From Eubacterium sp. (GTDB taxonomy: Bacteria; Bacillota; Clostridia; Lachnospirales; Lachnospiraceae): DNA of 64,000 nt. The notes beneath the pieces are model-generated. The model had not been told where the DNA came from and did no database searches. It worked only from the letters and a program-made list of their open reading frames with translations. Positions 1-43,075 of the stretch are shown in pieces. The position numbers were made by a program, and so were the translations under genes. The stretch spans positions 1-64,000 of the forward strand of contig JAGBNF010000008.1 in assembly GCA_017634555.1 (NCBI GenBank). The letters are read 5' to 3'. Every line of letters starts with the position of its first letter. The first letter of the stretch is position 1.

Positions 1-1163
1 ATGTCTGCTTTTCTTCCTACGTTAGGAACTATATCAAGATCACATTCAGGATCCGGATTCTTGTAGTTGATAGTAGCCGGTACAAATCCGTCCTTAAGTG
101 CCATTGTTGTAAATATTGCTTCGATAGCAGCTGCAGCTCCCATAAGGTGTCCTGTCATTGACTTTGTAGAGCTTACCATGAGCTCATAAGCATGATCTCC
201 GAACACTTCCTTGATAGCCTTTGTCTCACCTGCATCGTTAAGATGTGTTGATGTTCCGTGCGCATTGATGTAATCAACATCTGATGTATTGATGCCTGCA
301 TCCTCAACTGCCATTCTCATACATCCTGCGGCACCAGCTCCTGATGGATCCGGAGCTGTAATATGATAAGCATCACAGCTTGCACCGTAGCCTACGATCT
401 CGCCGTAGATCTTAGCACCTCTTGCCTTAGCATGCTCAAGCTCTTCGAGAATGAGGATACCTGCGCCCTCACCCATTACGAAACCGCCTCTGTCTGCATC
501 GAAAGGAATTGATGCTCTGTTAGGATCGTTAGATGTTGAAAGTGCCTTCATAACTGTGAATCCGCCAAGTCCCATAGGACATATACATCCCTCAGCACCA
601 CCTGTGATCATCACATCCTGATAACCGTCTCTGATCTTGTGGAATGATTCACCGAGTGAGTTGTTTCCGCTGGCACATGCTGTTACTATACACTCACAAA
701 CGCCCTTGAAGCCTGTATCGATTGCAATCTCACCTGAACACATATTTGAGATAGACATCGGGATGAAGAAAGGAGATATCTTCTCATAGCCCTTCTCAAA
801 TCCTCTTGCTGTCTGATCTGTAATAGTGATAAGTCCGCCGATACCCGATGATACGATAGTTCCGCATCTGAAAGGATCTTCCTTCTCAATATCGATTCCG
901 CTGTCCTTTATTGCCTCTCTTGCAGCGATGATACCGAACTGTGTATAACGGTCCATCTTGCGGGCTTCCTTCTTATCAAGGAAATCCTCAGGATTATAAT
1001 CCTTAACCTCACCTGCTACCTTTACCTTGAAATCAGTAACGTCCATCTGCTTTGTAAAATCAATACCGCAGACACCGTTCTTTGCATTTTCCCAAGCCTC
1101 ATTTAAGTTATGTCCTACCGGATTTATAGTTCCCATTCCGGTGATCACTACACGTCTTTTCAT
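1..1163 (-). CDS. fabF: 3-oxoacyl-ACP synthase II FabF (C-terminus beyond left edge)
   Basis: Condensing enzyme of type II fatty-acid synthesis that extends acyl-ACP with malonyl-ACP. The reading frame starts at the ATG complementary to 1161-1163 and stays open to base 1, so the extreme C-terminus is missing. It begins MKRRVVITGMGTINPVG, the standard FabF start. It carries the active-site cysteine in TACASG and the histidine-containing motifs AHGTSTHLND and STKSMTGHLMGAAA (Cys-His-His triad). It is the last visible gene of the leftward acpP-accD-accA-fabK-fabD-fabG-fabF operon; accB, fabZ and accC would be expected further left by analogy with other clostridia (inference). Confidence 0.96.
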   Translation of the reverse strand, partial: MKRRVVITGMGTINPVGHNLNEAWENAKNGVCGIDFTKQMDVTDFKVKVAGEVKDYNPEDFLDKKEARKMDRYTQFGIIAAREAIKDSGIDIEKEDPFRCGTIVSSGIGGLITITDQTARGFEKGYEKISPFFIPMSISNMCSGEIAIDTGFKGVCECIVTACASGNNSLGESFHKIRDGYQDVMITGGAEGCICPMGLGGFTVMKALSTSNDPNRASIPFDADRGGFVMGEGAGILILEELEHAKARGAKIYGEIVGYGASCDAYHITAPDPSGAGAAGCMRMAVEDAGINTSDVDYINAHGTSTHLNDAGETKAIKEVFGDHAYELMVSSTKSMTGHLMGAAAAIEAIFTTMALKDGFVPATINYKNPDPECDLDIVPNVGRKAD

Positions 1164-39708: not shown

Positions 39709-41142
39709 CTAATTACCGAAATGTAGCACATTTAAAAGAAGTATCCAGCTGAGTCCGTAATATGTTAATACCGCCACAAGGTCGTTTACAGTTGTAATGA
39801 GCGGTCCCGATGCAACTGCCGGGTCAACCTTGATCTTCTTGAAGAACAGCGGGATAAGAGTTCCTACTGCACTACTGATCACCATTGCAATTACCAGGGA
39901 TATTCCTATACAACCCGATACCGCATAAGCAAACTGCCATGAATTATTCTTAAAGAAGTAGATATAAAGTCCCACAAGAAGGAAGGACACGGTTCCGAGA
40001 AGAAGTCCGTTGCAAAGTCCTACTCTCATTTCCTTAAGTACCAGATGTCCTTTCTGACTGAATGTCAGGTTTTCATCCATAAGAACTCGGATAGTTACGG
40101 CAAGCGACTGTGTTCCGACGTTACCTGCCATGTCAAGTATCAGCGACTGGAATGCCATTATAATTGTAAGGGATGCAACAACCTTATCGAACATTGCAAC
40201 CACGCTTGATACCAGCATACCGAGCACAAGAAGGATGATAAGCCATGGAAGTCTTTTTTTCATACTCTGCTTCAGAGGTTCCTTCAGATCTTCTTCCGCA
40301 ATAAGACCGGCAAACATGGCGTAATCCTCTCCCATCTCATCATCTACAACTTCGATGATACTCTGCGAGGTGATTATTCCTAAGAATTTATTCATATTGT
40401 CAAGTACCGGAATATAGCTTTCCGAATAATCCTTCAGCTTTTCAATACAGTCATCTATGGACTCATTTGCATAAACATACGGGAAGGATGTAACTATAAG
40501 CTCCTCAAGGGGAACTGTATTTCTGGCTATGATAAGATCCTTCAGATCTATCGCACCATAGAATTCATCATTCTCATCAACTACGAATATAGTTGAAATG
40601 TTATCGTTATCCTCTGCCTGATTTACCAGAGCCGTCATGGCCTGCTTTACTGTCAGGTTCTCTCGGATAATTATACAGTTTGTAGTCATATGACTACCGA
40701 TCTCATCCTCATCGAAGGAAGCGATAAGTCTAATCTCCTTCTGTACCTCAGGATTGATCGAATCTATGATAAGTGTTCTCTTTTCCTTCTCGATCTGATG
40801 AAGAACATTTGCCGCAGTATCCGTTTCCATTTCGGATACTACCGATGCAGCCTTTCTGATATCCATCTCATTCAGATATTCGGCAGCATCATCCTCTTCG
40901 AAGTATTCGAATATTTCAGCCAGCATATCCGATCTGCATACGCGGAACATTTTCTTTCTTTCCTGTCCTGTAAGCACAGAAAAAACACCTGCGATATCAT
41001 TACAGTGGTAATCCTCCAGCTGATTCATCATAAGCTTCGGAGCATTGTTGCTTCTAATGATCTTGAGAATTTCAGCCTCATAATCAGGCTTAATAGAAAC
41101 GTCACTTTCCGATAAAGTGTTTTCGATAATCTCGTTTTCCAT
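39709..41142 (-). CDS. mgtE: magnesium transporter MgtE
   Basis: Mg2+ channel with cytosolic gating domains. Residues about 20-140: helical MgtE N-domain (EYFEEDDAAEYLNEMD). About 150-275: two CBS domains (GSHMTTNCIIIRENLTVKQAM; VTSFPYVYANESIDDCIEKL). About 295-475: five transmembrane helices with the conserved MAGNVGTQSLAV, VGTLIPLFFKKIKVDPAVASGPLITTVNDL. 477 residues. Expression is expected to be governed by the leader at 41226-41457, which lies between its own promoter and the gene. Confidence 0.95.
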   Translation of the reverse strand: MENEIIENTLSESDVSIKPDYEAEILKIIRSNNAPKLMMNQLEDYHCNDIAGVFSVLTGQERKKMFRVCRSDMLAEIFEYFEEDDAAEYLNEMDIRKAASVVSEMETDTAANVLHQIEKEKRTLIIDSINPEVQKEIRLIASFDEDEIGSHMTTNCIIIRENLTVKQAMTALVNQAEDNDNISTIFVVDENDEFYGAIDLKDLIIARNTVPLEELIVTSFPYVYANESIDDCIEKLKDYSESYIPVLDNMNKFLGIITSQSIIEVVDDEMGEDYAMFAGLIAEEDLKEPLKQSMKKRLPWLIILLVLGMLVSSVVAMFDKVVASLTIIMAFQSLILDMAGNVGTQSLAVTIRVLMDENLTFSQKGHLVLKEMRVGLCNGLLLGTVSFLLVGLYIYFFKNNSWQFAYAVSGCIGISLVIAMVISSAVGTLIPLFFKKIKVDPAVASGPLITTVNDLVAVLTYYGLSWILLLNVLHFGN

Positions 41143-41225
41143 CTTCTGCCTCCGTTATTAATTTGATATGCGGCACAAACCGCAATTCATTTAGGAAGCC
41201 AGAAGAACAAACCTTTGAAATGTAA

Positions 41226-41261
41226 ATAAAAAGCCCGTATCTGAATCGGTCAGATACGGGC
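41226..41261 (-). terminator. attenuator terminator in the mgtE leader
   Basis: Eleven-base perfect stem GCCCGTATCTG/CAGATACGGGC, seven-base loop, then TTTTTATTT on the minus strand. Its 5' arm (CGCCCGTATCTGACC, minus strand) is complementary, with a two-base bulge, to codons 8-12 of the leader peptide ORF. About 85 bases remain to the mgtE start. Confidence 0.88.
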
Positions 41262-41278
41262 GAAAGAACATACTAAAA

Positions 41279-41377
41279 TCAGCACACAGAATGATCATGT
41301 TTCAGCACATGGTCATCATCTGTTGTATCATACATTTCCGTTCGCCCGTCTGACCCATGACTGTCACCGCTAACCAT
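41279..41377 (-). CDS. 32-residue Asp/His-rich leader peptide of mgtE
   Basis: Small ORF with a near-consensus ribosome binding site (AAAGGAGGTGAC) four bases before ATG. The peptide begins MVSGDSHGSDGRTE, contains DTTDDDHV at residues 17-24 and KHDHSVC at the end. Eight of 32 residues are Asp and four are His. Codons 8-12 (GGGTCAGACGGGCG) are the antiterminator strand. Codons 20-29 form a second hairpin (ATGACCATGT/ACATGATCAT). Role as a Mg2+-sensing leader is inference. Confidence 0.75.
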   Translation of the reverse strand: MVSGDSHGSDGRTEMYDTTDDDHVLKHDHSVC

Positions 41378-41428
41378 TCTGTCACCTCCTTTATAGTGGA
41401 TTTCTAACATGAATTATCATGCTCATTA

Positions 41429-41457
41429 ATTATCACACCTTAGCTAAAGTATGTCAA
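41429..41457 (-). promoter_or_regulatory. promoter of the mgtE leader
   Basis: TTGACA (complement of 41452-41457), 17-base spacer, GATAAT (complement of 41429-41434) preceded by TGT. The -35 box directly abuts the lemA stop codon, so mgtE has its own start rather than relying on lemA readthrough. Confidence 0.82.
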
Positions 41458-42009
41458 TCAGAATGTCATATTTACATCATTTTTCTTTATTTCATCTGCC
41501 TCGAAGAAGGCCTTCTGTGTTGCACCCATCATTCCTGCAACGATGTTGTTAGGAACTGTGATGATTCTTCTGTTATAATCTGTAACATTTGAATTATAAA
41601 GTCTGCGCGCAGCCTGAAGATGCTCTTCTACATCAGCAATACTTCTCTGAAGCTCTACAAAGTTGTTGCTTGATCTGAGCTCAGGATAATGCTCTGCAAG
41701 AATACGGAACTCTCTGCTGAGATTGTCCATCTCTCTGTTAGCATTGTTTCTCTCGTTCATTGACATTCCTGAACGAAGCTGAACAATCTTCATGAGTGTT
41801 TCCTTCTCATAATTCATATATCCCTTTGTAACATCAAGCATCTTTGTAAGTACATCATATCTTTTTGTAAGTGCTACATCGATTCCTGATAAAGCTTCCG
41901 AAACCTTAATTCCTGAAACCTTAATTCCGTTGTATACTCCTATAAACCAGAAAACAATTAAAAGTACAACAACAAGTGCTACAATTCCAATAATTCCAAG
42001 TGCTGACAT
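41458..42009 (-). CDS. lemA: LemA family protein
   Basis: Membrane-anchored helical-bundle protein, role unclear (often with DUF3137 or TPM genes). One N-terminal helix (about residues 4-27), then the LemA core with IDVALTKRYDVLTKML, REFRILAEHYPELRSSNNFVELQ, ARRLYNSNVTDYNRRI and the C-terminal FFEADE. 183 residues, normal. It lies 24 bases after the DUF3137 gene and is therefore under the Mn2+-riboswitch-like leader. Confidence 0.94.
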   Translation of the reverse strand: MSALGIIGIVALVVVLLIVFWFIGVYNGIKVSGIKVSEALSGIDVALTKRYDVLTKMLDVTKGYMNYEKETLMKIVQLRSGMSMNERNNANREMDNLSREFRILAEHYPELRSSNNFVELQRSIADVEEHLQAARRLYNSNVTDYNRRIITVPNNIVAGMMGATQKAFFEADEIKKNDVNMTF

Positions 42010-42032
42010 TTTGATATCCTCCTTAAATACTC

Positions 42033-43043
42033 TTAAACTGTTTGATAATAATCATTTGCATTATAATTATTATAATTGTTCTGTGTATTATAACCCGGTT
42101 GAACATTATAATTGTTCTGAGCGTTATAATTATTATAGATGCCTCTGATTATCGTGATAAAGTTTTTTATATCATCAATATCTCTTTGTATCGCCTGCAT
42201 TTCATCCGGATATGATATTTTTTTCAGCATACTGTCCGCATCAAATGCATCATGAAATGGTTCATTAAACCCAACAAAGACCCTGTTTCCCGCAACATGT
42301 ACCGCCATACTGTTATACCTCGATGAAAGCGCCATCATGTCTTCCATAAACTGAGGTGTAAGCAGGTAAAATGCGTCGTGAGGTGAAAGTGCAAAAACAT
42401 CAAATCTCTTATTAAAATCAACGCCTTCCATCTCAACCTTCTGTGGCCGCATATTTATCATCGGCTTTCCTCTGTATCTATAGTTATCCGTGAAAATCTG
42501 TACCGAATTAACAAACTTTGACGGAAAATCAAATACAAGCATTCTTCCTTTGAAGTATGTGGTTACATGTGTTGACTTTCCCGTTGATGTAACCTGCTGA
42601 ACAGTTACATCTGATGTCTCAAAAGGAATTCCCGCAAATTCGCCTCTCAGATAATCCTCTGAAGAAAATCTGTTTCCCATGGCACACAGACCAAAGGTCT
42701 TTACGGCAGTTTCATGAAAACCACTCTTCCAGTCATAAACAACATTTTGGAAGTTGTATCTTAACTGCTTTTCTACAAAAAGCGATTTATATGCTGCCTT
42801 GTATTTTTTCCTCGTTCCAAGCAGCAGGATTGCTCCGATCACTCCTACCAACATTCCGAATAACGGCAGGACAAAGGCATTTCTTGAGGCATGCAGTAGA
42901 GGTCCACCGAAAAAGAATAGAGTACCGCCTGCGATAAGAAGTATCACTCCGGCTATTGCCCTTGATCTGATGTCTTCCAATTCTTTAATCTTTTCATAAA
43001 GACGCGGATCATTGTTGTTTGATACATTCATTCCTGCATTCAT
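42033..43043 (-). CDS. DUF3137-like membrane protein
   Basis: Two transmembrane helices near residues 27-65, then a cytosolic domain resembling DUF3137 (EDYLRGEFAGIPFETSDVTVQQVTST, TTYFKGRMLVFDFPSKF, FVGFNEPF). The C-terminal 35 residues are an Asn/Tyr/Gln-rich low-complexity tail with YN and NNYN repeats. DUF3137 genes commonly adjoin lemA. The start is the ATG complementary to 43041-43043 behind AAAGGAGGG; an upstream ATG at 43064 precedes that site. 336 residues. Function unknown. Confidence 0.82.
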   Translation of the reverse strand: MNAGMNVSNNNDPRLYEKIKELEDIRSRAIAGVILLIAGGTLFFFGGPLLHASRNAFVLPLFGMLVGVIGAILLLGTRKKYKAAYKSLFVEKQLRYNFQNVVYDWKSGFHETAVKTFGLCAMGNRFSSEDYLRGEFAGIPFETSDVTVQQVTSTGKSTHVTTYFKGRMLVFDFPSKFVNSVQIFTDNYRYRGKPMINMRPQKVEMEGVDFNKRFDVFALSPHDAFYLLTPQFMEDMMALSSRYNSMAVHVAGNRVFVGFNEPFHDAFDADSMLKKISYPDEMQAIQRDIDDIKNFITIIRGIYNNYNAQNNYNVQPGYNTQNNYNNYNANDYYQTV

Positions 43044-43075
43044 CTTGGTTCCCTCCTTTCCCACCTAATTATAAT

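Follow-up and report, generated by a model that had tools for sequence, protein, structure and literature searches.

The locus studied here raises the question of how the magnesium transporter gene mgtE is controlled in a genus of Clostridia in which the expected RNA switch was not detected. The M-box (ykoK leader, RF00380) controls mgtE-type genes in Firmicutes. None of the 61 genus genomes gave an M-box at the stringency used (stricter filters, which can lose weak matches), yet mgtE must be regulated somehow in these bacteria. The analysed stretch of 64,000 nucleotides, hereafter the window, contained no Rfam family at threshold at any position, and the best candidate between 41100 and 41480, at E-values up to 5, was a trpB motif that stayed below threshold, with 30.7 of 59 bits. 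As nothing reached threshold, an M-box or other Rfam RNA was ruled out at the window locus, in agreement with the earlier note, which had seen no M-box there and had left known riboswitches to a covariance search.

The leader in front of mgtE

The earlier note had described a promoter, a 32-codon ORF with a strong ribosome binding site (RBS), a hairpin in the second half of this ORF, an intrinsic terminator and then mgtE. All of these elements were found on the minus strand (Table 1), and the identity of mgtE followed from a TIGR00400 match of 273.1 bits (cut-off 232.75). The ORF list gives a 43-aa frame from an upstream ATG; the ATG at 41377 was taken as the start because it is the one with a Shine-Dalgarno sequence (SD). 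The transcript would start about 45 nt before this leader ORF, which would be strongly initiated. A promoter-like pair was present within 170 nt of 80/90 leaders of the family described below and in 185/450 shuffled stretches; since shuffled stretches also score this often, the promoter scan by itself is weak evidence. A lemA-type gene (LemA family, PF04011) ends with its stop codon directly 5' of the leader promoter, and this gene together with a DUF3137 gene occupies positions 41458-43064 of the window (minus strand), directly upstream of that promoter.

Table 1. Features of the mgtE leader region in the window
Feature	Positions	Strand	Basis or remark
Leader promoter: TTGACA 41457-41452, 17-nt spacer, GATAAT 41434-41429	41429..41457	-	read from sequence
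Shine-Dalgarno sequence of leader ORF, AAAGGAGGTGA	41382..41392	-	read from sequence; SD score 9/9
Leader ORF, ATG at 41377, 32 codons plus stop, stop ends 41279	41279..41377	-	
Conserved candidate sensor region, codons 1-12, MVSGDSHGSDGR	41342..41377	-	Asp5, rare codons GGG8, GGG11, CGA12
Predicted antiterminator strand, codons 8-12, GGGTCAGACGGGCG	41343..41356	-	RNA pairing prediction
Predicted hairpin of codons 20-30 (Asp/His codons), inside antiterminator loop	41288..41320 (about)	-	fold prediction
Terminator 5' arm region predicted to pair with leader, CGCCCGTATCTGACC	41248..41262	-	RNA pairing prediction
Intrinsic terminator: hairpin 41261-41233, five U 41232-41228	41228..41261	-	fold, 12 bp, -20.5 kcal/mol
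Shine-Dalgarno sequence of mgtE, GGAGGC	41148..41153	-	read from sequence
mgtE, 477 aa: N domain, two CBS stretches, MgtE transport domain	39709..41142	-	

The complementarity that the earlier note had seen between codons 8-12 and the 5' arm of the terminator, apart from a two-base bulge, was borne out. Of the 14 leader bases of GGGTCAGACGGGCG, 13 pair with CGCCCGTATCTGACC, the bulge lies on the terminator side, and RNAduplex gave -27.5 kcal/mol for codons 7-13 with the gap before mgtE. The hairpin in the second half of the leader (-9.3 kcal/mol) was kept in the sister genome G053 (L016). When the window RNA was folded without the 3' arm of the terminator, the antiterminator was obtained (-52.6 kcal/mol; the leader pairs with 14 bases of the arm region), and the same fold appeared with a ribosome placed on the start site. 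With the full terminator made, the terminator state was lowest in all three folded scenarios (-57.2 kcal/mol in the free RNA, where the antiterminator had -52.9). Because the terminator is the energy minimum once complete, the window switch would have to be kinetic. By its sequence, the window leader has the form of an attenuator, that is, a short ORF with a good ribosome site before the gene, and by prediction its antiterminator and intrinsic terminator are mutually exclusive. It resembles trp-type attenuators in that the leader ORF overlaps alternative hairpins, one of them an intrinsic terminator, and differs from them in that its antiterminator strand is part of the ORF itself and comes right behind the conserved start.

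Distribution of the leader and conservation of its start

An mgtE at least 81% identical to that of the window was present in 12 of the 61 genus genomes (its own included), and the leader ORF lay 5' of it in all 12; the leader peptide of the sister genome is 81% identical to that of the window. No such leader was recognised at 18 loci of the other mgtE type in the genus, which is 23-27% identical; one of these loci offered only 119 nt of upstream sequence. A profile of ten leader peptides, run against 397 genomes of the family, yielded two further leaders (G391 and G239), although it missed leaders that were found later by other routes. The profile search of the family proteomes gave three trustworthy matches, namely the window leader and these same two; the other profile matches had no adjoining mgtE in those checked (30 loci). 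A pattern search of 392 genomes of the order hit seven genomes, five with leaders before mgtE (the window's own, G239, G384, G525 and G604) and two by chance. The pattern scan of 84,980 species genomes, from which records closest to the window's genome may be missing, returned 57 stretches, of which 40 were leaders and 17 were chance matches without leader features. mgtE lay downstream of 39 of these 40 leaders; the stretch of the fortieth (L121) ends before mgtE, and its leader is the same as that of G019, where mgtE follows. The leader-bearing records are named Lachnospiraceae, Ruminococcus, Oscillospiraceae, Eubacterium, Ruminiclostridium, Clostridia or Bacillota. Of 236 genomes, 2 matched a stricter DNA pattern made for MD leaders (a subgroup defined below), and both matches were known mgtE leaders.

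Orthologs of mgtE (E-value of 1e-120 or better) were present in 70/392 genomes of the order and 21/391 of the class. They provided 86 upstream stretches, four of them too short; the remaining 82, with genome G213 counted twice, were scored by SD plus motif. The leader ORF was found before 56 of the 82 orthologs and was missing from 26, the controls scoring in 0/82 reverse strands and 19/410 Markov sequences; several loci are congeneric, so that the leader counts, including the 39 motif-blind ORFs reported below, are not independent. Leaders occurred in nine families (f1, f8, f11, f17, f26, f35, f41, f66 and f75). Judged from these sequences, the leader family is tied to mgtE in gut Clostridia and extends beyond the genus. 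The 26 leaderless loci (L185, L187-L193, L197, L198, L200-L202 and others) belong to the same mgtE clade and carry no recognisable leader; an M-box as a substitute was found at 0/26.

The alignment of mgtE upstream regions that the earlier note had proposed as a check upheld the start of the ORF (12/12 genus loci, 56/82 orthologs) and not the peptide beyond codon 12, where the sequence of the 90 distinct leaders (53 GTG and 37 ATG starts, 21-54 aa) is close to background. Two subgroups were distinguished, MD (MDSCDSHGR or MDKSDSHGR) and DGR, to which the window belongs (M..[GS]DS.G..GR; the window-type motif can also be written M..GDSCGS.GR), and conservation was confined to the first 8-12 codons. 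Asp5 was present in 82 of the 90 leaders, Ser6 in 80, Gly8 in 72, and Cys, His or Tyr at position 7 in 69 (29, 26 and 14, respectively); position 5 was non-acidic in some f17 members (L163, L165, L196). Since the SD-plus-motif score rewards the motif, its count of early acids in 90/90 leaders is biased, and a motif-blind choice was therefore made (the strongest SD, with 7 or more matching bases, and an ORF of 15-60 aa). It picked an ORF in 39/81 upstream regions and none on the reverse strands. An acid stood at position 2 in 31 of these 39 ORFs and at position 5 in 33; 25 had acids at both positions, and 39/39 had one at either. Positions 3, 4, 6, 7, 9, 11 and 12 had 0 or 1 acids, positions 8 and 10 had 7, and positions 13 and 14 had 11. 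The window leader carries Asp5 and Asp10 without Asp2, its early motif being moderately acidic.

These leaders are presumably translated. Over the 90 leaders, whose selection had required 15 aa, at least 12 codons were open from codon 13 onward in 98% of cases, the corresponding shares for the two other frames being 51% and 37%. Within MD codons 2-9, third positions varied more (1.28 bits) than first and second positions (0.99 and 0.94), and Ser6 was encoded by TCT in 5 leaders and AGT in 30, which points to a constraint on the amino acid. L179 retains the conserved DNA GGCGAAGT, which is no longer in frame beyond Ser6; being a single indel, this case was left out of the evidence. At the level of sequence, what is conserved is the N-terminal acidic residues at 2 and/or 5 together with the rare codons GGG and CGA.

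This pattern bears on two views of the peptide itself. The earlier note had placed the sensor in the blocks DTTDDDH and KHDH, that is, in the Asp run of codons 17-22 and the His/Asp tail. An acidic run is indeed shared by the window and its sister, and at least three His within seven residues after codon 12 occurred in 2/90 leaders, these same two. Runs of at least three acids within five residues after codon 12 were present in 8/90, the blocks are not found in the rest of the family, and their codons form the hairpin inside the antiterminator loop, so that we consider an Asp/His sensor very unlikely. A small protein acting on MgtE would be in keeping with the conserved N-terminus and the constant partner gene. 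It is hardly credible, with nothing conserved past codon 12 and a length that ranges from 21 to 54 aa, and it would leave the RNA pairing in cis unexplained.

Pairing in cis and codon choice

The complementarity of each leader to its own gap was ranked against the complementarity of unlike leaders to that gap. Among the 90 distinct leaders, the cis rank fraction averaged 0.205 (0.5 expected; mean z -1.36), and it was at or below 0.05 in 28 and at or below 0.1 in 43; the window alone ranked at 0.062 and its sister at 0.037. Some leaders had no cis complementarity (e.g., L177, L212 and L017). The helix profile of 44 DGR leaders had its excess at codons 7-11 and rose again at 13-16; that of 46 MD leaders had it at codons 12-17, codons 5-6 being worse than the controls. 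Pairing in cis exceeded pairing in trans by -3.71 +/- 0.42 kcal/mol for helices starting at DGR codon 7 and by -2.40 +/- 0.48 kcal/mol at MD codon 13. Codons 1-10 of the MD leaders showed no cis excess over trans, which implies a different reason for their retention.

The earlier note had also suggested that relatives be compared for the pairing itself; in the examples below, the partners vary and still match. GGGTCG pairs with CGACCC in L024, GGGGCAG with CTGCCTC of the terminator arm in L113, and GGAC with GTTC in L138; codons 13-18 of L217 pair with AAGGAATGTCATCGTC of the terminator. Terminators were detected in 58/90 gaps by a procedure that accepts weak hairpins, from -7 kcal/mol. The partner of the leader was the anti-SD strand in L021-L025 and others, and among the 32 leaders without a detected terminator, 13 had at least three SD bases paired inside the leader's partner, the other 19 being unexplained. 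Because partners and platforms differ and nevertheless match the leader, the leader strand appears to be kept while the platform changes between a terminator and an RBS-sequestering hairpin.

A ligand-binding RNA whose conserved core merely happens to read as an ORF was weighed against these data. Within codons 2-12, the nucleotide choice is narrower than the peptide would demand, and the DGR alignment gave a weak consensus fold (-4.0 kcal/mol, about -0.1 when columns were shuffled). The MD subgroup gave no consensus fold (0.0), and the median of 43.5 nt from the -10 box to the start codon leaves little room for an aptamer. The strong SD, the fixed distance from the start codon and the frame that is kept open also speak against a riboswitch, as does the lack of an Rfam match at the leader, in the window or in relatives, bar the separate M-box of L209; we give this reading very little weight. 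Local RNA structure conserved over codons 1-30 was also rejected as a candidate in its own right: the MD subgroup had none and the DGR subgroup a weak one.

GGG and CGA are rare in the 49 ORFs of the window (GGG is 2.7% of the Gly codons and CGA 3.2% of the Arg codons). In the MD subgroup, Gly8 was GGG in 24/29 leaders and Arg9 was CGA in 26/27; after codon 12, GGG made up 8/42 and CGA 5/57. At Gly8 and Arg9/Arg12 of the leaders, GGG and CGA are nearly fixed even where no downstream pairing occurs. In the MD subgroup, this choice is explained by neither pairing nor peptide, and slow decoding may be offered as a guess. As the two codons are kept without pairing, the role of codon speed in ribosome abortion is directly testable.

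The fixed codon choice and the recurrence of Cys, Gly and Arg in the motif would also suit attenuation by scarce charged tRNA (Cys, Gly, Arg-CGA), in which slow translation of the leader would control mgtE. We judge this improbable, since mgtE is an ion transporter gene, Cys7 is swapped for His or Tyr, and the f17 leader L165 has Gln for Arg. The run of regulatory amino-acid codons typical of trp-type leaders was not seen in the position table of the 90 leaders.

Ribosome abortion as a candidate response to magnesium

The model that we favour, with moderate confidence, is a translation-controlled attenuator in which early abortion at the acidic start exposes the antiterminator and turns mgtE on, presumably at low Mg2+. 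Ribosomes that pass codon 12 would cover or disrupt codons 8-12, the terminator would form and mgtE would be off. Ribosomes that abort in the first codons would leave codons 8-12 bare to pair with the terminator 5' arm once it is made, and mgtE would be read. The abortion site would be the conserved N-terminal motif with its one or two early acids (at 2 and 5 for the family and at 5 and 10 for the window), and the rare GGG and CGA codons after the acids may hold the ribosome at an early stage at which it is vulnerable. What causes the abortion is presumably low Mg2+. Ribosome abortion as the trigger is a part of the earlier note's mechanism that we retain, as likely by analogy with MgtL and MgtQ.

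Alternatively, ribosomes could pause at the motif or at GGG-CGA, the paused ribosome setting the RNA fold. Such nascent-chain stalling would be consistent with the retention of GGG at Gly8 and CGA at Arg9 in unpaired MD leaders. The footprint of a ribosome paused at codons 8-9 places its leading edge near codons 12-13, and this is where the MD anti-element starts. The DGR anti-element (codons 7-11), however, would lie under the paused ribosome, and stalling would then act with opposite sign in the two subgroups, whereas abortion would act with the same sign. Because abortion before codon 8 would bare the anti-element in both subgroups, it is favoured over stalling, by parsimony alone; we regard stalling as unlikely.

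The abortion model has precedents in enteric bacteria. As far as the available part of PMC8092293 describes it, MgtQ of Salmonella is an 8-codon ORF before mgtB, in which Asp2 and Glu5 destabilise ribosomes and raise mgtB. On that description, the present leader family shares with MgtQ a strong SD, acids at 2 and 5, a downstream Mg transporter gene and competing stem-loops that free the RBS (PMC8092293). It differs in length (21-54 codons) and from the intergenic position of MgtQ in an operon, as well as in its platform, which in MgtQ is an RBS hairpin only, while terminators are common in this family (PMC8092293). Loss of the start codon lowers mgtB in the MgtQ system, whereas our model predicts a rise of mgtE, and no sequence relation to the MgtQ described there was seen beyond the acidic positions (PMC8092293). 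For MgtL, the mgtA leader, the accessible portion of PMC11282234 reports ribosome destabilisation by Glu2/Asp4. The early acidic motif is common to both leaders, as low-Mg2+ drop-off that turns on a Mg transporter gene would be (PMC11282234). In that account, MgtL differs by a Rho-dependent terminator and a Pro-rich EPDP motif (PMC11282234); the leaders of the present family lack a Pro motif and have an intrinsic terminator or an RBS hairpin.

Acids within the first codons, as in MgtL and MgtQ, were present in 39/39 motif-blind ORFs; in the window they are Asp5 and Asp10 only. The spacing described in the same portion of PMC11282234, with acids adjacent or one apart and often with Pro, was not observed in the leaders: acids at 2 and 5 are spaced by two residues, those at 5 and 10 by four, and there is no Pro motif. 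The EttA motif, as presented there, requires closely spaced acids (PMC11282234), and this, with the missing Asp2 of the window, is a point against the abortion model. The non-acidic position 5 of some f17 members, the 26 leaderless orthologs and the completed terminator as energy minimum also weigh against it. The Thioalkalivibrio mgtE motif is likewise an RNA element before mgtE; it is set apart by its description in the consulted part of PMC11109978, according to which it is a candidate riboswitch restricted to Thioalkalivibrio and has a large P4 stem whose base holds the SD and AUG. Within the literature covered, outside which subscription papers mostly fell, no description of the present leader was found, and six peptide strings gave no match.

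More tentatively, and at somewhat less than an even chance, the ribosome may act as the Mg2+ sensor for this mgtE in several orders of Clostridia, through the early acids and the GGG-CGA code. This broader reading also holds that codons 7-17 evolved into the antiterminator or anti-sequestering strand, that the origin was independent of MgtL and MgtQ, and that the leader switch was stacked behind an M-box in one genome. If the leader is a switch, its presence in nine families would make it a common Mg switch of gut Clostridia that is absent from Rfam release 15. If the model is true, sensing by ribosome destabilisation, known from enteric bacteria in the parts of PMC8092293 and PMC11282234 available, would have arisen elsewhere with other platforms.

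That Mg2+ is the signal of the leader is suggested by the identity of the gene, by analogy with MgtQ and MgtL, and by the tandem M-box of L209. The M-box, an aptamer RNA of 169 positions and thus unlike the leader, was absent from the window and from 53/54 leader loci; L209 was the one locus in 54 that has it. There, the M-box (454-616, plus strand; 90.8 bits, threshold 44) has its own terminator and stands directly before the leader ORF (691-783), which is followed by a second terminator and then mgtE. The L209 transcript would thus carry two attenuators in tandem.
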